Source of the DNA: an uncultured Fibrobacter sp.
Lineage (GTDB): Bacteria; Fibrobacterota; Fibrobacteria; Fibrobacterales; Fibrobacteraceae
NCBI RefSeq assembly: GCF_947305105.1
Contig: NZ_CAMZCS010000022.1
Span: forward strand, 1 to 54,677
Direction: 5' to 3'
DNA: 54,677 nucleotides
The notes below the pieces were generated by a model. That model saw only the letters and a program-made list of their open reading frames with translations. It made no database searches and was not told the DNA's origin. The position numbers and the translations under genes were made by a program. This document shows positions 29,516 to 43,989 of this stretch, piece by piece; position 1 is the stretch's first letter; each line of letters opens with the position of its first letter.

Positions 29516-30931
29516 ATGAAAAAATTAGTGCGTTCTTTCGGTTTGTCTGCTGCGGCTATGGCGTTTTTCGCTTGCAGTGGCGATGATGTTACAAAGGTTT
29601 ACGAAACCACCACACCGACTGTCGGTATGGATCTTGTCGCTGCCGGCGATGAAAGGCCTGATTGCGATGACGACCACGATGGGAAGCTCATTTACGTGGC
29701 TGATTCCAGCATGGCTTTTTTCTGCTCCAACAAGGAATGGTTGCCGTTTGGTGGCGAAACCATGAGGGGCCCGACAGGCGAACCTGGTGAAAAAGGCGAA
29801 ACCGGTGAAAAGGGCGACAAGGGTGAAAAGGGTGCCAAGGGCAGCAAGGGTGATAAGGGTGATGCCGGTGACGGTTGTACCTTGAGCGAAATCGAAGGCG
29901 GTGTCGTGGTCACTTGTGGTTCCGATGTCGATACTCTTTATAATGGCAAGGCCGGAGTCGGACAGAAGGGCGAACAGGGCGATGCTTGTTCCTTGAAGTC
30001 GTTGGATGGTGTCGGTGTTGAAATCACTTGCGGATCCGACGTGGACACCCTTTACGACGGAAAGGCTGGTTCGTCGACGGTTTCTGTTGAGGGCGGATGT
30101 ACGCTCGTTAGCGATGAAAATGGTGTCGTGACGTTCGCTTGCGAAGGTGGCGATGTTGTATTGAGCAAGGCTCTTTGTGGTTCTGCCGCATACGATCCGG
30201 CCGAAAGCTTCTGCCTCCTGGGCAAGGTGACCGCGTTGAGCGCAACTTGCGCTGGTGAAACAATTGACCAGCGTAAGCAGTTCTGCGACCCGCGCGAGGG
30301 TGGGCATGCGTATGACTACGTTGTTCTCGAATTTGGTGGCGTGACTCAGGTCTGGATGGCTCAGAATTTGAGCTATGGCACCGATTTGGAAGGTGAATCT
30401 ATTTGCAGCAACGGCACAGAAACTTGCGATGAGGCCGGACGCCTTTATGACTGGTGGTCTGCTGCCAATGTTGCAACATCGGAATCGAATACCAAGCAGA
30501 AGATGAACCAATCCTATTACCAGGGTATTTGTCCCGATGGCTGGCATATGCCGAACGAAACGGAACTTTATAATTTGCTCAACTATAATGGCAAGAATGC
30601 AAATGGCATGAGCTCTATGACTATGGGCAAGGCTCTCAAGTCCACGACTGGATGGGCAGAAGTGTCTACTGATGTGGATGGCAACGGAGAAGATTTGCTG
30701 GGCCTGAATATTGTGCCGTCTGGAAGTTTCTCTCCTGTTGAAGGTGATGCAGAAATCAGTGTTATTCAAGGTGAAGAATTGGCTGTTTTCTGGATTGCTT
30801 CCGAAGAGAAGGATAATAACGCATACACGAAGGCTTATACACTTGTGTTTGCAAACTATGCGGACAATACGATGTATAATCCGTCTCCGAAGGGCATCGG
30901 CGCTTCTGTCCGTTGCTTGATGGACCTCTAA
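29516..30931 (+). CDS. FISUMP-domain lipoprotein with collagen-like Gly-x-x segment
   Basis: A 471-residue predicted surface lipoprotein. Residues 1-20 form a lipoprotein signal (lipobox AFFAC, Cys20). Residues ~83-122 are a collagen-like run of Gly-x-x triplets rich in Glu/Lys (GEPGEKGETGEKGDKGEKG). Two related Cys-containing units follow (CGSDVDTLYNGKAG and CGSDVDTLYDGKAG). The C-terminal ~210 residues are the FISUMP/Fib_succ_major domain (QVWMAQNLSYGTDL, CPDGWHMPNETELYNLL, GIGASVRCLMDL), a family expanded in Fibrobacter and of unsettled function, probably adhesive. AAAGGAGAAC precedes the ATG. A strong terminator follows. Confidence 0.88.
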   Translation: MKKLVRSFGLSAAAMAFFACSGDDVTKVYETTTPTVGMDLVAAGDERPDCDDDHDGKLIYVADSSMAFFCSNKEWLPFGGETMRGPTGEPGEKGETGEKGDKGEKGAKGSKGDKGDAGDGCTLSEIEGGVVVTCGSDVDTLYNGKAGVGQKGEQGDACSLKSLDGVGVEITCGSDVDTLYDGKAGSSTVSVEGGCTLVSDENGVVTFACEGGDVVLSKALCGSAAYDPAESFCLLGKVTALSATCAGETIDQRKQFCDPREGGHAYDYVVLEFGGVTQVWMAQNLSYGTDLEGESICSNGTETCDEAGRLYDWWSAANVATSESNTKQKMNQSYYQGICPDGWHMPNETELYNLLNYNGKNANGMSSMTMGKALKSTTGWAEVSTDVDGNGEDLLGLNIVPSGSFSPVEGDAEISVIQGEELAVFWIASEEKDNNAYTKAYTLVFANYADNTMYNPSPKGIGASVRCLMDL

Positions 30932-34159: not shown

Positions 34160-35131
34160 ATGACAATAAGTTCCAAGAGCGGCAAGTTCACTTTTATTGA
34201 CTTGTTTGCAGGAATTGGTGGAATGCGAATAGCATTTGAATCCGCAGGTGGAAAGTGCGTTTACACAAACGAATGGAATAAGTTTAGCCAAAAAACATAC
34301 TTTGACAATTTCGGTGATATGCCAGATGGAGATATTACTAAGGTTGACGCACAAACAATTCCAGATCATGATGTACTGGTGGCTGGCTTTCCGTGTCAGC
34401 CTTTTTCTATTGCCGGAGTTTCCAAGAAAAATAGTTTAGGAAGGGCAACAGGTTTTGAAGACAAAACGCAGGGAACATTGTTCTTTGATGTTTGCCGTAT
34501 TATCAAGGCGAAACGTCCGAAAGCGTTTATGCTTGAAAATGTCAAGAATCTTTGCAGTCACGATAAAGGCAATACGTTCAAGGTGATTCAAGAATCATTA
34601 GATGAACTAGATTACGAAATTTTTTATAAGGTCTTGGATGGTCAGAATTTTGTTCCACAACATCGCGAACGTATTCTCATTGTCGGTTTTGATAGGCAGA
34701 GGTTCGATACCCCAATAGATTTTAAGTTTGAAATAACTCCGGTAGAGCCGAAACCAACTATAAAAGATATTCTTGAGAAAAAACCTGATTCGAAATACAC
34801 CCTTTCTGACAAGTTATGGTGCTATTTACAAGCGTATGCAGCAAAACATAAGGCTGCAGGAAACGGCTTCGGCTATGGAATTGCTCCGCTAAATGGTGTG
34901 TCGCGTACCTTAAGTGCAAGATACTATAAAGATGGCTCGGAAATTCTCATTGCACAACGAAATAAAAATCCGAGAAGACTGACTCCACGCGAATGTGCAA
35001 GATTGCAGGGCTTTCCGGACTCTTTCAAAATAACCGTTTCTGATGGGCAGGCATATAAGCAATTTGGAAATTCGGTTGTCGTTCCGTTGATGGCGAATGT
35101 TGCGAGATTAATTGCAGAGAGGTTGAAATAA
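34160..35131 (+). CDS. DNA (cytosine-5) methyltransferase of a type II RM system
   Basis: A 323-residue m5C methyltransferase that protects DNA from the adjoining nuclease. Motif I is [15 protein letters not shown], motif [12 protein letters not shown] with catalytic Cys79, motif [10 protein letters not shown], motif [15 protein letters not shown] and motif [17 protein letters not shown]. The target-recognition region between motifs VIII and IX is short. GGAG lies 7-8 nt before ATG 34160. Both RM genes look more AT-rich than the flanking core genes, a sign of transfer. There is only a 1-nt gap to the nuclease gene, so they are co-transcribed. Recognition probably resembles a CCWGG-type site, judging only from the EcoRII-like partner. 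Confidence 0.93.
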
Positions 35132-35132
35132 A

Positions 35133-36302
35133 ATGCAAAATAATGCCCCCGACGCTATTAAGGTGGCTACATTGGGACAGAAAACATTTTGCAAGTTCTT
35201 ATCTGCGAATGATACTGATCCCATGCAAAGCCATCAAGCGGGAATCTATATTCCGCACAACAGTTCATCGATTTTATTCAATTCTCCTGGAGTAAAAGGA
35301 GATAATAAAGATAGATTCGTTTCTGTCTATTGGCATTTTGATGAAGATTTCGTTTCAGATGAAGTTAGGTTCATTTATTATGGGCGAAGCACAAAAAACG
35401 AATACAGAATTACGCATACACCTTTTTTCAAACCGGAATATACGGGTGCCTTATTTGTGTTTACCCAATGCGACGAAGACAATTATCAAGCATTTATTTT
35501 AAATACAGATGACGAAATAAATCAATTCTTGGATGCGTTTGGCCTTTCTCCTCATGAAACAAATTGCTTGATTGATGGTTGTAAGCCAACAAGTAATAAT
35601 GATTTGATAAAGGCTTTTATTCAAGATATAGATGATAAAGGGATTGATTTCCCCGATTCAAAAAGAATGTCTGCCGCAGCAAGAGATATTTGTGATAGGA
35701 CAATTTCTTCTCAATCACTGATACTAACAAATCCAGATAAGAAAATATTGGACTGGACTGATATGGAATACAATATTTTCAAAGCAGTAGAGTATTCTCG
35801 CTATGGAAATGTTGTTTCAAAGGGCTTCCTTTCAGTTGATGATTTTGTTGACATGGCAAACCAAGTCCTAAATCGGAGAAAAAGTCGTGCAGGAAAAAGT
35901 CTAGAACATCATCTCGCAGCAATATTTGACGGAAACCATTTGCCTTTTGAAGAACAGGTAGTGACCGAAGGAAATAAAAGACCTGATTTCATATTTCCAT
36001 CTAAAAAAGCATATCATGATTTGGCATATCCTACAAACAAACTGATTTCGCTTGCAGCAAAAACAACATGTAAAGATCGCTGGCGTCAGGTCATCAATGA
36101 AGCAGATCGACTGAAAGACGATTATAAATATCTGTGCACATTGCAACAAGGTATTTCTGTTGCTCAATTAAATGAAATGCAAGCAGAGAAGGTGAGGCTG
36201 ATTGTCCCTAAACCATATATCAAGACTTATCCTGAAGAACGTCGCAATGATATTTGGCCGTTAGATAAGTTTATCGCATATGTGCGGGAATTGTTTGCTT
36301 GA
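35133..36302 (+). CDS. EcoRII-family type II restriction endonuclease
   Basis: A 389-residue restriction endonuclease. The N-terminal half (~1-165) resembles the EcoRII effector-binding domain (MQSHQAGIYIPHNSSSI, RFVSVYWHF, VRFIYYGRSTKNEYRITHT). The C-terminal half holds the EcoRII-C catalytic core: EHHLAAIFDGNHLPFEEQ, then GNKRPDFIFPS (Asp285) and LAAKTTCKDRWRQV (Lys310), the family's PD...K active site. EcoRII is a type IIE enzyme needing two sites and cuts before CCWGG; relatives cut CCNGG or similar. The exact target here is not readable. It follows the methyltransferase directly (TAA A ATG). Confidence 0.85.
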   Translation: MQNNAPDAIKVATLGQKTFCKFLSANDTDPMQSHQAGIYIPHNSSSILFNSPGVKGDNKDRFVSVYWHFDEDFVSDEVRFIYYGRSTKNEYRITHTPFFKPEYTGALFVFTQCDEDNYQAFILNTDDEINQFLDAFGLSPHETNCLIDGCKPTSNNDLIKAFIQDIDDKGIDFPDSKRMSAAARDICDRTISSQSLILTNPDKKILDWTDMEYNIFKAVEYSRYGNVVSKGFLSVDDFVDMANQVLNRRKSRAGKSLEHHLAAIFDGNHLPFEEQVVTEGNKRPDFIFPSKKAYHDLAYPTNKLISLAAKTTCKDRWRQVINEADRLKDDYKYLCTLQQGISVAQLNEMQAEKVRLIVPKPYIKTYPEERRNDIWPLDKFIAYVRELFA

Positions 36303-39045: not shown

Positions 39046-39109
39046 GTGCATTGAATCACTCGGTATCGTTTTCTTTAAGCCCTTTTGACCCGCTTTGCGC
39101 AGATATACT

Positions 39110-39117: not shown

Positions 39118-39136
39118 GCGTATAAGGAGAATGATT

Positions 39137-39817
39137 ATGGACATCCGGAAAAGCAAGGTCGAAAAGAATCGCGAATGGTCGGCCAATACACAAAAGGTGT
39201 TGGCTTCGTTTTTGGGGGTATCAGCGATTTCGATGTTTGCTGCGTGTGATTTGGCGACCTCTGGCGATGTTACTGCTCCAGATTCATCGGATAGCACTTA
39301 TGTGCCATCTGGTGATGTCGCCGATCCGGATGAAATAAGGCTGTCTTCTTCATCTCCATCTCCGGAGTCTTCATCTTCGTCTCCATCTTCGGTGTCTTCT
39401 TCTCAGCCCCGTTCTTCGTCGAGCCTCGGACCTGTCGGCGTTTCGTCAAGCAGTTTCTATCCGCCCTTGGCGGGGATTGTGATGCCTGAATCGTCGTCTA
39501 GCAGTTATCCCGTGGATACGCTTGAAATTACCTCCGGCGAAATCGTTCCACCGATGGAATCATCTTCGTCTTCATTGCCGTATTACGCCAACTCTTCCAG
39601 TGGTATCCTGGTGGAACTCTCTTCTAGCAGTTTCGTAACTCCTCCGCAATCTTCCAGCAGCGAAGAACCAGGGCCTTTGGCCGGTATCCCGGAATTGTCC
39701 TCCAGTAGCAGCGAGCCCGAACCTTTGCCTGGCGACCCGATTGAACCACCGGAGCCGCTGAGTGGCGACGTTGCTGATCCGGATCCTGTAATTCGCATTG
39801 ACGACCCGAAAGACTGA
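39137..39817 (+). CDS. Ser-rich lipoprotein paired with a radical SAM enzyme
   Basis: A 226-residue predicted lipoprotein: charged N-terminus (KSKVEKNREWSANTQK), hydrophobic core LASFLGVSAISMFAAC with lipobox Cys37, then a mature part made of poly-Ser runs and short acidic/proline repeats. The motif SGDV occurs three times (near residues 42, 58 and 209, twice as SGDVADPD) and PLAGI twice. ATG 39137 is preferred over 39131 because AAGGAG is 7 nt upstream. The stop overlaps the radical SAM start (TGATG), so the two are translationally coupled. This recalls the rSAM/lipoprotein pairs catalogued in TIGRFAMs; I infer it is the modification substrate, with the repeated motifs as candidate sites. 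Confidence 0.75.
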   Translation: MDIRKSKVEKNREWSANTQKVLASFLGVSAISMFAACDLATSGDVTAPDSSDSTYVPSGDVADPDEIRLSSSSPSPESSSSSPSSVSSSQPRSSSSLGPVGVSSSSFYPPLAGIVMPESSSSSYPVDTLEITSGEIVPPMESSSSSLPYYANSSSGILVELSSSSFVTPPQSSSSEEPGPLAGIPELSSSSSEPEPLPGDPIEPPEPLSGDVADPDPVIRIDDPKD

Positions 39818-40962
39818 TGAATCTCGTTCTTTCCCTCACGGAGCGGTGTAACCTGCGCTGCACCTACTGCTATTACAAGGTGAGCCACGAGGCCCGTTCT
39901 TTGGTGATGTCCAATGAAATTATGGAGGCCGCCATCAGGCTCGCTTTTGAACGGACGTTGTTTCTTGGGCAGCGTTTTTTGAACATCACGTTTTTTGGCG
40001 GAGAACCGCTTCTTTGCATGGATTCTGTCCGTAGGGGAGTGGAGTTCGCCAAGAGTCTTGTCGCCGGGCGTTTCGGGGATGAATTCGTTGTGGGCGTGGG
40101 TGCCGCTGAAAAATCCTCGCCTAAGTTTCGCCTGCGTTTTGCGGTGAACACGAACGGTACATTGTTAGACGATTCCATCATTGAATATCTGAAACGCGAA
40201 AATTTCCGCATATACCTTTCGCTTGATGGCCCTGAAGCACATCATAATATTTGCCGCAAGCAGGTGGGCGGGGCGGGCTCCTTCAAGCTTATTGAACCGC
40301 ACATTCCCGCATTGCGCAAACTCGACACGGTCGTGCTTTCGGTGGTGACCCGCGAGAATATGCGTTCGCTTTCGGATGCGGTGCGCTGGATACAGGCTCA
40401 GGGTTTAAGGAACATGACCGCCGCCGTGGATTTTGACGGCAAGTGGACAGGGGAGGAATTCGACGTTCTTGCGGCTGAATATGTGAAAATGGCCGGATTC
40501 TGGATGGAACTCAAACGCAAAAAAGTGCCATTTTACCTGGGGACGATTCAGGATAAGCTGAAATTCCGCCTGACGGGGCAACGTCACCGTACATCGAGTT
40601 GCCATGTGGCCGAAGGCATTGTCGCCTGTGCTGCGAATGGTAACCTTTTCCCCTGTACGCGGTTTATCTCCAGCAAAAAAGATGCTCCCTATATCATGGG
40701 CAACGTTTACGACGATCCGGCGAAAATTTTTGGCGGGGCCGTCGCCCAAGACGTCCGCGATTTCTTTGACCGCGACAAGGAAGACTGCAAGGGTTGCGCC
40801 CTGCGGTTCCGTTGCCATGCACACGAATGTGCCTGTACTTCGTTCTACTCCACGGGCAATATTCACGAGGTTTCCCCCGAGGTTTGCACACACGAACGTA
40901 TGCTCGCCGCGATATGCGACGATGCCGTGTCAGAACTTACAGATGTTTCAGGAAATAATTAA
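39817..40962 (+). CDS. Radical SAM/SPASM peptide-modifying enzyme
   Basis: A 381-residue radical SAM enzyme. The SAM cluster motif is CNLRCTYCYYK at residues ~11-18, followed by TFFGGEPLL (the GGE motif binding SAM). A SPASM-type C-terminus has Cys in SSCHVAEGIVACAANGNLFP and CTRF, and then in CKGCALRFRCHAHECAC and VCTHERM, enough for two auxiliary 4Fe-4S clusters. Such enzymes modify peptides or act as sulfatase maturases. No sulfatase lies nearby; the translationally coupled Ser-rich lipoprotein is the likely substrate. Sulfatase-type oxidation of Ser is one possibility given the poly-Ser runs, but thioether or C-C chemistry cannot be excluded. Confidence 0.88.
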   Translation: MNLVLSLTERCNLRCTYCYYKVSHEARSLVMSNEIMEAAIRLAFERTLFLGQRFLNITFFGGEPLLCMDSVRRGVEFAKSLVAGRFGDEFVVGVGAAEKSSPKFRLRFAVNTNGTLLDDSIIEYLKRENFRIYLSLDGPEAHHNICRKQVGGAGSFKLIEPHIPALRKLDTVVLSVVTRENMRSLSDAVRWIQAQGLRNMTAAVDFDGKWTGEEFDVLAAEYVKMAGFWMELKRKKVPFYLGTIQDKLKFRLTGQRHRTSSCHVAEGIVACAANGNLFPCTRFISSKKDAPYIMGNVYDDPAKIFGGAVAQDVRDFFDRDKEDCKGCALRFRCHAHECACTSFYSTGNIHEVSPEVCTHERMLAAICDDAVSELTDVSGNN

Positions 40963-41166: not shown

Positions 41167-42423
41167 CTAATTTAGGCCATAAAGGCGATTGTGGGCGAGG
41201 CAAACAGCGAGTTTCCCGTATTCTCGGACGAAATCTTCACGGGAAGGTGTGTCGCCGAGCGCTCTATAGAGCGCGCTCGAAAGCGTGCCGCGGGCAAGCA
41301 TCTGTTCCATGATGTTGCGGGAGACTTCGGTGAGGTCGCCTTTCACTGCATCGAAGACATGCTTCCAGAGCTCACCGGCGGTGCATGAGCCTTCCATGCC
41401 GAACACGGCCAGAAATTCGGACCAGTCAATGACGGTGTCTTCGGCGTCGCGGGAAGTTTGCGTCAACATTTCCGAGAGTCTTGCCGTATCAAAGTCACGC
41501 AAGAATTCCCGGTATTCCTTCATGGTGTGCGGCGCTTTTCCGTTTGCGAGTTTGCCGCTCGCGATGGCCTTGAGCGTCGCGATTTCAAGTTCCACGATGG
41601 CGATGTCTGCGTTCGGGCATTCCTGAATGTCCACAAGCCGGATTTCGATGGCACCGCGGTCAAAACGCGCGATGGCGCCCCGGCTGTTCAAGAAGAAATG
41701 GTTCAGCAGGTGCTCGGGGTCGTAGGGCGCAATGGCCTTCTTGACCTTGTCGAAAATCTGCGTATTGTACTCGTCGTAGGTGTACGCCTTTTCGGGAATT
41801 ACGAGGCCTGCAATTTCGGGAACCTTGTCCTGGTTATGGCGGTAAACCTCGATTCGTGCGTCCTTGAAGCCCGTGTATTTGCTGTCGAGGTAGGGACTGC
41901 TCGCCGCGATGGCGGGGATGAGCGGCAACAATAGGCGGATGGCCGCATGGAGCTCGCCGAATTCGTCGTCGCCATCAAAAGAGAGATTTAGGTGCGTGCT
42001 CTGCAGGTTCGCCCAGCCGTGGCCCTTGCAGTTGAAGATGCGGTCGTACGTTTGGTAGATGTCGAGGCAATCGTACGGCCAGAGCTGCATTTCGGCCGGG
42101 TCCATGAAGGGGTGCGCGGCGCTGGGCAGCAGCATGGCGCCAATTTTCTCGAGTTTCTTGTTCGCGCGGCGAATCTCGTGGAAGAACCGCTTGCCGAGCC
42201 CGTCGAAGGTGGACTTGGGGTGCGCGCACTTGAATTCGAGCACGTGGCTCACGAGTTCGTTCGAAAGGCCGATATCGTCGTATTCCACGTCGGAAAGCTG
42301 GTTGCCGTCCTTGTCCTTGCCGAGCGGGATGTCGGCGCGGGGCAGCACCTGCAGCGTTTCGCGGTCCACGATCATGAATTCCATTTCGACGCCGAAGCGT
42401 TCCCAAATCTTGTAGTTAGTCAT
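41167..42423 (-). CDS. Glutamate-cysteine ligase-like (GCS2 family) amidoligase
   Basis: A 418-residue member of the GCS2/YbdK carboxylate-amine ligase family. Motifs include FGVEMEFMIVDRE at the N-terminus (metal/ATP site), LEFKCAHPKSTF, GWANLQSTHLNLSFDGDDEF and AIEIRLVDIQECPNADIAI. It forms an amide bond between a glutamate-like carboxylate and an amine at the cost of ATP. It lies downstream of a RimK-like ATP-grasp gene on the same strand; such pairs have been proposed to make small peptides or modify proteins (Iyer and colleagues' amidoligase survey). The start ATG 42423 directly abuts a TACTTCCTAC repeat and has no Shine-Dalgarno sequence. Confidence 0.85.
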   Translation of the reverse strand: MTNYKIWERFGVEMEFMIVDRETLQVLPRADIPLGKDKDGNQLSDVEYDDIGLSNELVSHVLEFKCAHPKSTFDGLGKRFFHEIRRANKKLEKIGAMLLPSAAHPFMDPAEMQLWPYDCLDIYQTYDRIFNCKGHGWANLQSTHLNLSFDGDDEFGELHAAIRLLLPLIPAIAASSPYLDSKYTGFKDARIEVYRHNQDKVPEIAGLVIPEKAYTYDEYNTQIFDKVKKAIAPYDPEHLLNHFFLNSRGAIARFDRGAIEIRLVDIQECPNADIAIVELEIATLKAIASGKLANGKAPHTMKEYREFLRDFDTARLSEMLTQTSRDAEDTVIDWSEFLAVFGMEGSCTAGELWKHVFDAVKGDLTEVSRNIMEQMLARGTLSSALYRALGDTPSREDFVREYGKLAVCLAHNRLYGLN

Positions 42424-42426
42424 AAT

Positions 42427-42479
42427 AGTAGGAAGTAGACAGTAGGAAGTGGTTAGTGATTAGTGGTTGGTGGTTAGGG
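42427..42479 (-). repeat. CTAACCAC and TACTTCCTAC word array before the GCS2 gene
   Basis: Read on the minus strand, several CTAACCAC(C/T)AACCAC words lead into CTTCCTACTGTC and TACTTCCTACTATT, then the ATG. The same order occurs before hisD at 53261-53298. Confidence 0.8.
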
Positions 42480-42498
42480 CGTAGTGGCGTTCTCTCGT

Positions 42499-43989
42499 CT
42501 AATCCTCATGCTGATGTATCTTGTGTTGTGCGGCGTGCATGCGTTCCTCGATACGGCGACGCAGGCTCCTCATGATGGTAAGGTAGATTTTTTTCTTGCC
42601 GACCAAATCCTCGATACCGTGGTCGATACTCGGGTTGTCGTTCACCTCGATCACGACCGGGTGTCCGTGGATTTCCTTGAGGTCTACGCCGTAGAGCCCG
42701 TTACCGATAAGGCTTGCTACGCGGAGCGCCGTCTTCACGATGCCATGGGGCACGCTCTCGATGGGCAGGCAGTCCCACTTGCCGCAGGTGCCCTGCTTGT
42801 TTTTGCTGTCCCAGTTGTAGATTTGCCAATGGTTCTTGGCCATGTAGTACTTGCAGGCGTAAAGCGGCTTGCCGTCGAGGATTCCGATTCGCCAGTCAAA
42901 ATCGGTGGGGGTAAATTCCTGCGCGATGAGCAAATCGCTGTGCTCGAACATCGTGTCAAGAATTTCTTCGAGTTCTTCCTTGTTGTTCGCTTTCTTGACG
43001 CCGAGGCTGAAACTCGAATCGGGCGTCTTGATGACCATGGGGAAGCCGAGCTCCTTTGCGAGCGTGTGGCGGTTCTCGCTATGCACGATAATCGTCTTGG
43101 GCGCGGGAATCTTGCCTACGGTCATGAGTTCTTGCAAATAAACTTTATTTGAACAACGCAAAATGCTGTCGGGGTCGTCGATGACGGCGATGCCTTCGCT
43201 CTGGGCGCGGCGCGCGAACGCGTAAGTGTGGTGGTTCACGTTCGTCGTCTCGCGGATGAATATGGCGTCGAATTCGCCTACGCGGTGGTAGTCCTTCTTG
43301 GTGATGAGCTCCACGCGGAATCCCGTATCTTGCGCAGCCTCGATGAAGTTATGGATGGCCTGCTTGTTGCTCGGCGGTTCCACTTCGTCGGGGTTCACGA
43401 GGATGCCGAGGTCGTACACGTAGTCTTCGCTCTTGGCGGAGGTGTAGCGCGTCTTCTCGAAGTACTCGATAGCGAACTGGTCCACCATCTCCTTGTGCGT
43501 CTCGGGAATTTCGTCGACGCTGATGGGGCGGATGCTCTGGATGAACCATTTTTGCTTGAACACGAACTTGGCGCGGAGCAGCGGGGCCTGGAAAATGCGG
43601 TAGAGTTCCTGCGAGAGCTCCAGGTATTGGGCGCTCACGTTCTGGCCGAAGTAGATGGAGAGCACGAATTCGGTGCCGGTCAGTTTGTGCAGGCTCTTCT
43701 GGATGAGTTCGTCGATGTCGTCGCTGATGATTTTCACGACGGCTGGGGCCTTGAAGTCGCGGATGTTCTTGACGTTTGGGATGACCTTGTGGCCGCGCGC
43801 TTCGGCAAGCAGGCTCACGTAGTAGCCCTTGCTCTGGTAGCTGTAGTCGCGGCACAGGTTAAAAACGCGCACGCTCCTTTGCGTGGTGAACTCCGGATTG
43901 GTGAGGTAGTCTTTCGCCGATACGATTTCGGCTTCGGGAATGTGGAATTTCCAGTGTTTTGGATTGTTTACGACAATTATTTTTTTCAT
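42499..43989 (-). CDS. RimK-family ATP-grasp ligase with RLAN domain
   Basis: A 496-residue ATP-grasp enzyme. The N-terminal ~200 residues fit the RLAN (RimK-like ATP-grasp N-terminal) domain (VVNNPKHWKFHIPEAEIVS, SYQSKGYYVSLLAEARGHKV). The ATP-grasp domain follows at ~280-480, with PMVIKTPDSSFSLGVKK, LIAQEFTPTDFDWRIGILDG and metal-binding VVIEVNDNPSIDHGIED. It should ligate an amino acid, possibly glutamate, to a carboxylate on a peptide, protein or cofactor. It is likely in one transcription unit with the GCS2 ligase downstream. ATG 43989 lacks a clear ribosome site. Confidence 0.87.
   Translation of the reverse strand: MKKIIVVNNPKHWKFHIPEAEIVSAKDYLTNPEFTTQRSVRVFNLCRDYSYQSKGYYVSLLAEARGHKVIPNVKNIRDFKAPAVVKIISDDIDELIQKSLHKLTGTEFVLSIYFGQNVSAQYLELSQELYRIFQAPLLRAKFVFKQKWFIQSIRPISVDEIPETHKEMVDQFAIEYFEKTRYTSAKSEDYVYDLGILVNPDEVEPPSNKQAIHNFIEAAQDTGFRVELITKKDYHRVGEFDAIFIRETTNVNHHTYAFARRAQSEGIAVIDDPDSILRCSNKVYLQELMTVGKIPAPKTIIVHSENRHTLAKELGFPMVIKTPDSSFSLGVKKANNKEELEEILDTMFEHSDLLIAQEFTPTDFDWRIGILDGKPLYACKYYMAKNHWQIYNWDSKNKQGTCGKWDCLPIESVPHGIVKTALRVASLIGNGLYGVDLKEIHGHPVVIEVNDNPSIDHGIEDLVGKKKIYLTIMRSLRRRIEERMHAAQHKIHQHED

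Follow-up and report, generated by a model that had tools for sequence, protein, structure and literature searches.

Fibrobacter is a genus noted for breaking down cellulose in the gut. Among radical SAM enzymes with two-cluster SPASM domains, the anaerobic sulfatase maturases (TIGR03942) do without an N-terminal RRE and act on proteins before export, and thioether chemistry is a common outcome for the radical SAM/SPASM class as a whole. PapB (NF047865), another SPASM enzyme, modifies several sites per substrate (PMC9413430). It requires Cys together with Asp/Glu, and the PapB literature describes leader binding to an RRE. Precursors of bufferins and other MNIO-modified products carry a Sec signal peptide that may double as a recognition element, and some of them are lipoproteins (PMC12452194). 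In the TIGR04133/TIGR04134 system, a radical SAM enzyme is encoded with Ser-rich lipoproteins, and the FibroRumin rSAM family (TIGR04136), named with reference to Fibrobacter, is part of a radical SAM peptide system. A genome-mining study listed no peptide clusters for Fibrobacteres (PMC4289311).

The gene pair and known enzyme families

Here we describe a gene pair on the forward strand of a 54,677-nucleotide stretch of Fibrobacter DNA, analysed as a whole and called the window. The first gene (39137..39817) encodes a Ser-rich lipoprotein of 226 residues, a putative multi-site substrate. It is preceded by an AAGGAG ribosome-binding site (39124..39129) and runs from an ATG at 39137 to a TGA stop at 39815–39817. 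The start chosen in the initial annotation was right; a longer ORF from a TTG at 39095 was rejected, as it is not conserved. The second gene (39817..40962) encodes a radical SAM/SPASM enzyme of 381 residues, a putative maturase. The reported TGATG stop/start overlap (39815..39819) is real, because A39817 belongs to both the lipoprotein TGA and the enzyme ATG, a one-base overlap. Promoter and terminator scans returned nothing above chance.

The product of the first gene has the signal peptide and lipobox Cys of a bacterial lipoprotein. Its lipobox, FAAC (…ISMFAAC37), was seen by inspection and is present in most of the proteins that share its N-terminal leader; Cys37 (39245..39247) is the only cysteine of the protein. 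The mature part is 29% Ser and 16% Pro. Ser-richness by itself is unremarkable, because lipoproteins of TIGR04133 loci and other Fibrobacter lipoproteins are likewise Ser-rich. The window lipoprotein matched nothing in Pfam or NCBIfam, and no NCBIfam model matched the tested representatives of the other substrate types described below.

The enzyme was recognised by Pfam (Radical_SAM, 6.8e-15; SPASM, 6.7e-5). Its cluster motif CNLRCTYC (C11, C15, C18; 39847..39870) is invariant in the family alignment, and the SPASM cysteines comprise C262-x12-G275-x4-C280, C324-x2-C327-x5-C333-x4-C338 (assigned by eye) and C357 (40600..40887). Across 79 aligned enzymes, these cysteines are at least 97% conserved. 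The CX3CX2C motif and SPASM cysteines thus place the protein, at the superfamily level, among radical SAM/SPASM peptide maturases, and from the full SPASM set two auxiliary clusters are expected. An AlphaFold2 model (pLDDT 46, from 11 close sequences) was too poor and was not used for fold searches.

None of the best 25 NCBIfam matches of the enzyme reached its cut-off. The top match and closest characterised enzyme, PapB, scored 177 bits against a cut-off of 340, and a second close copy of the enzyme in the same genome scored 205. TIGR03942 gave 101 of 349 bits, and no sulfatase gene adjoins the pair; FibroRumin rSAM gave 53 of 400. In contrast to the RRE-dependent recognition described for PapB, the ORF begins right at the radical SAM core, without a separate N-terminal recognition domain.

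The pair had been taken for the Fibrobacter version of the rSAM/lipoprotein systems, and in general layout, with Ser-rich lipoproteins next to a radical SAM enzyme, it does resemble TIGR04133/TIGR04134. At the family level this identification is contradicted, and we regard it as extremely unlikely: the enzyme's TIGR04133 score was 20.8 bits where 425 are required, whereas two true members on contig C9 of the same genome scored 624 and 594. The lipoproteins of the true members have short signals (MFYKHWKKIALALTGFFWASC, MNIRKHLRNLFLVSTALFWANC) that the leader profile misses. Enzyme family and signal peptides both differ, and there is no common leader, so two unrelated radical SAM/lipoprotein systems coexist in one genome. 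Each of the two TIGR04133 copies (L160 and L161, genome G000) lies amid several lipoproteins of another signal type. We found no paper describing the Fibrobacteraceae enzyme-lipoprotein family, and no family in NCBIfam or Pfam describes the system; the gene pair apparently belongs to an undescribed enzyme-substrate family of Fibrobacteraceae.

Leader, enzyme and their co-occurrence

Alignment of the neighbouring lipoproteins, a check suggested at the outset, revealed a conserved n-region. In the window lipoprotein this leader-like segment is MDIRKSKVEKNREWS (39137..39181), part of a 37-residue N-terminus of the form M[KDN]IxKxK[VI]… plus lipobox that is common to the leader lipoproteins. The aligned proteins start M[KDNE]Ix… and have the lipobox Cys at position 36–42, compared with about 20–22 in three examples of other lipoprotein kinds from the same genome. 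Within the window genome, a profile of the leader singled out five proteins and no others (E values of 2e-16 to 3e-10; next match, 0.2): the window lipoprotein and the members of a four-gene array on contig C36. All five adjoin the two close enzyme copies of that genome.

We counted both components across genomes, most of them metagenome assemblies. The enzyme occurs in 47 of 61 genomes of the genus, in one to four copies each. Leader and enzyme were both present in 45 of these genomes and both missing from 14; two had the enzyme only (one a fragmented assembly, the other with a deleted leader variant) and none the leader only. Fisher's exact test gave 5e-12, a value that is not corrected for phylogeny and overstates independence because the genomes are related, although the co-occurrence pattern also separates genera. 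The corresponding counts across the family were 62 with both, 46 with neither, two with the enzyme only and one with the leader only, and genera g5, g8 and g10 have both components. Among 168 genomes of the phylum, enzyme matches at E ≤ 1e-40 were confined to four genera, all Fibrobacteraceae, with no relatives outside the family at that threshold. Scanning genome contigs, a search limited to close relatives, returned only Fibrobacter and Fibrobacterales records.

Next to the enzyme, candidate substrates are nearly always found. After two partial duplicates of own-genome loci were left out, 105 of 108 distinct enzyme loci had an adjacent candidate, the adjacency that marks RiPP precursors. In 74 loci a leader lipoprotein lies upstream, and in 31 a small Lys/Ala-rich cytosolic protein with similar G[ILMD][PV] motifs lies downstream; the three loci outside both classes are L023 (at a contig edge), L050 and L098/L113 (from another genus). 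In a maximum-likelihood tree, the 79 enzymes fell into groups of 55 and 24 rows, each with 100/99 support. Essentially all enzymes of the larger group are beside lipoproteins, and nearly all of the sister group have a small Lys-rich protein downstream, without a recognised signal peptide; substrate architecture thus tracks the enzyme tree. Related enzymes without a neighbouring lipoprotein, which had been named as grounds for rejecting the pairing, do exist in the sister clade, but there a different candidate substrate with a similar motif is adjacent.

The initial annotation also held that the overlap forces co-production. This is too strong, because 18 of 65 nearest lipoproteins do not overlap the enzyme start and within an array the outer lipoproteins are uncoupled from the enzyme. 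In the other 47 the overlap is four bases (35), one base (11) or two bases (1). Translational coupling is common, not obligatory.

The gene purB is a recurrent upstream neighbour, adjoining most of the loci of the window type that have enough flank. In one such locus (L012/L091, contig C18 of genome G046), the purB gene beside the pair is split in two frames, possibly by a sequencing error or a frameshift. On the minus strand of the window, 41167-43989 holds a GCS2-type carboxylate-amine ligase gene and an RLAN/RimK ATP-grasp gene. A functional link to these was rejected, and we take them as mere neighbours, because unlike purB they lie beside only part of the loci of this type.

Could the enzyme act on something else, with the lipoproteins mere operon-mates? 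No modified lipoprotein is known, and some leader proteins sit away from any enzyme. Yet the leader occurs almost exclusively with the enzyme, across unlinked loci and four genera, the enzyme clades track substrate types, and the unlinked leader proteins keep the core motif described below. These observations make a bystander enzyme unlikely. The proposed pairing of an enzyme with a multi-site lipoprotein substrate is strongly supported at the sequence level by the conserved leader, the co-occurrence and the repeated motif, and the enzyme very probably modifies the lipoprotein.

Leader proteins without an adjoining enzyme (L140, L142, L143, L149-L156, and L144, L145 and L148 beside purB) come from genomes that encode the enzyme elsewhere. 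Some occupy the purB locus of the window pair, and some have no lipobox Cys. They are possible substrates in trans.

A Gly-centred core motif and three candidate substrate types

The repeats first noticed in the window lipoprotein, SGDV three times and PLAGI twice, were correctly described (0.019 and <0.001 expected from composition shuffles; P about 5e-5 each), but they fall within a wider motif that has eight sites instead of five. The pattern x[AGSPT]G[IVDEML][VPIL] occurs eight times against 0.5 expected. The sites are TSGDVT (39260..39271), PSGDVA (39308..39319), PLAGIV (39470..39481), TSGEIV (39533..39544), SSGILV (39599..39610), PLAGIP (39680..39691), PLPGDPI (39728..39739) and PLSGDVA (39761..39772). 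The motif glycines, located with [AGSPT]G[IVLMDENH][VPIL], are residues 43, 59, 113, 134, 156, 183, 199 and 210.

Related proteins show the same enrichment. The window type (clade 1; 77–97% identity) consists of Ser-rich lipoproteins with PL[ASP]G[DI], TSGE[IV] and SGDV repeats; its best conserved site is TxGE..PP, the fourth site of the window protein. In shuffle comparisons, [AGSPT]G[IVLMDENH][VPI] gave 56 sites in clade 1 against 6.1 expected and 12 in other genera against 2.0; the unlinked leader proteins had 12 motif sites against 2.0, and [LTIP][AGSPT]G[IVLMDEN] occurs in 11 of 13 leader proteins away from enzymes against 1.9, with the motif classes in all of these counts shaped partly from the same sequences. 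Training and test data are separate only in the matrix test, where a matrix trained on clade 1 transferred to other genera (P = 3e-6), to the unlinked leader proteins (1e-8) and to the cytosolic partners (8e-6). For the cytosolic partners the effect was moderate (6 of 27 individually below 0.05), and the clade 2 signal came from one third of clade 2 members. In two clade 1 proteins, L022 and L021, loss of the repeats is nearly complete or partial.

In genera g5 and g10, where the enzymes are 48–49% identical, Ser runs separate PLSGDP/EAGVIA/PLSGVI repeats in the lipoproteins, and PLAGGI is present in that of g8. Unlinked leader proteins retain the motif without the Ser-rich linkers, and some without the lipobox Cys; PTAGIP, RATAGILEE and PLGGIM are examples that have outlasted the Ser runs.

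Clade 2 consists of arrays of one to five lipoproteins ending in SM[VIA][TS]T[FYL]E..D (e.g. SMVTTFERDDIE), plus a GH[IV]xxP variant; the four-gene array of the window genome is of this type. The D is present in 69 of 70 proteins with this ending and the E in 67 of 70, whereas the S, M and T were fixed by the search pattern. Most of these SMVTTFE-type lipoproteins do not have the Gly motif, so a common chemistry for the family is at best possible. The partners of clade 3 enzymes are basic cytosolic proteins such as L034 (…RQPIGGVIVLD…GTAGLPVLE…), L073 (FIEGIPYPGP) and L121 (FIRGIPAPE). They do not have the lipoprotein leader; the RiPP-type arrangement of conserved leader and variable or repeated core is thus found, as regards the leader, in the lipoproteins only. 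Downstream of some clade 3 enzymes (L063, L070, L071, L076, L078, L120) are short proteins with cores such as PIGGKTPV, TTGGKTPL and NPSGGMTVL, whose N-termini (e.g. MEKVNIKVEKAAAECDVKKV) faintly resemble the leader.

Proposed mechanism and chemistry

Taken together, these features probably reflect a RiPP-like system of Fibrobacteraceae in which a leader-reading maturase modifies Gly-centred repeats before Sec export. The n-region leader, some 15–20 residues ahead of an ordinary lipoprotein signal, would be recognised by the RRE-less maturase. Modification would take place in the cytosol, using a 5'-deoxyadenosyl radical and the auxiliary clusters, at the repeated x[AGSPT]G[IVDEML][VPIL] motifs spaced by Ser runs. 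Export by Sec and lipidation of Cys37 would follow, leaving a linker-rich protein with multiple modifications displayed at the cell surface. Enzyme paralogues encoded in the same genomes may act on the SMVTTFExxD C-termini of the tandem arrays and on the G[ILMD][PV] sites of the cytosolic basic proteins. By analogy, bufferins offer a precedent for recognition through the signal-peptide region: according to preliminary evidence reported by the authors of the bufferin study (PMC12452194), the recognition sequence includes the signal peptide, although there the modifying enzyme is an unrelated non-haem iron enzyme and the cores are Cys-based.

What the modification might be is constrained by the substrate. 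Thioether chemistry is excluded for the window lipoprotein, because its sole cysteine is the lipobox Cys37. For the family, a PapB/QhpD/SCIFF-like (ranthipeptide) maturase joining Cys sulphur to Asp/Glu carbons would fit the best NCBIfam match of both enzyme copies, and 39 of 42 clade 2 substrates have a Cys among their last 40 residues, with E and D conserved in SMVTTFExxD. However, the PapB cut-off was missed by half, there is no CX3D repeat, the clade 1 motifs do not supply the required Cys and Asp/Glu, and no Cys was present in the searched region of 9 of 13 clade 1, 4 of 4 other-genus, 8 of 13 unlinked and 18 of 27 cytosolic candidates. We judge this alternative highly unlikely overall, while thioether chemistry is possible for clade 2.

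Cyclophane formation of the GrrM, YhhB or DynA type, linking an aromatic ring to a residue two positions away, fares little better. These families match the enzyme at 65–100 bits, and there is a conserved F/Y in clade 2 cores and a conserved His in the GHI type. But no cut-off was reached and, since F, Y, W and H are all absent from positions −4 to +5 around 50 of the 67 clade 1 sites, cyclophanes seem very unlikely.

Backbone chemistry is favoured because the residues flanking the motif Gly vary (A/S/G/P before; I/V/D/E/M/L after). The likeliest step may be hydrogen abstraction at C-alpha or C-beta of the Gly or the next residue, a suggestion we make tentatively. The tolerance for flanking residues would also suit a peptide epimerase generating D-amino acids next to Gly, a YydG/PoyD-like outcome with zero mass change. 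Against this, the enzyme has a full two-cluster SPASM Cys set, of a kind more typical of cross-linking or dehydrogenating enzymes, and no epimerase family was among the top NCBIfam matches; epimerisation is rather unlikely.

If the RiPP-like reading is right, Fibrobacter devotes a radical-chemistry system, apparently one without a name so far, to modifying its own lipoproteins at multiple positions; an array can supply as many as five putative targets. Since the sole Cys rules out a thioether on the window substrate, modification may yield a linkage or residue of a new kind. It is conceivable, though we would not presume it, that one enzyme family makes an unprecedented change, independent of Cys and aromatic residues, at Gly motifs both of multi-site surface lipoproteins with the leader fused to the signal peptide and of cytosolic Lys/Ala-rich proteins, also in trans. 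Further in-trans substrates can be sought with the leader profile, and co-expression would be a direct test of the system, since the enzyme and the repeated motif are short and the leader is conserved.

Two other loci of the window deserve mention. At 34160-36302 there is an EcoRII-type restriction-modification pair, a C5 cytosine methylase (PF00145) followed directly by an EcoRII endonuclease (EcoRII-N, EcoRII-C). At 29516-30931, a lipoprotein with a Fib_succ_major domain carries a collagen-like repeat insert (GEKGETGEKGDKGEKGAKG…) and is followed by a GH9 cellulase gene.
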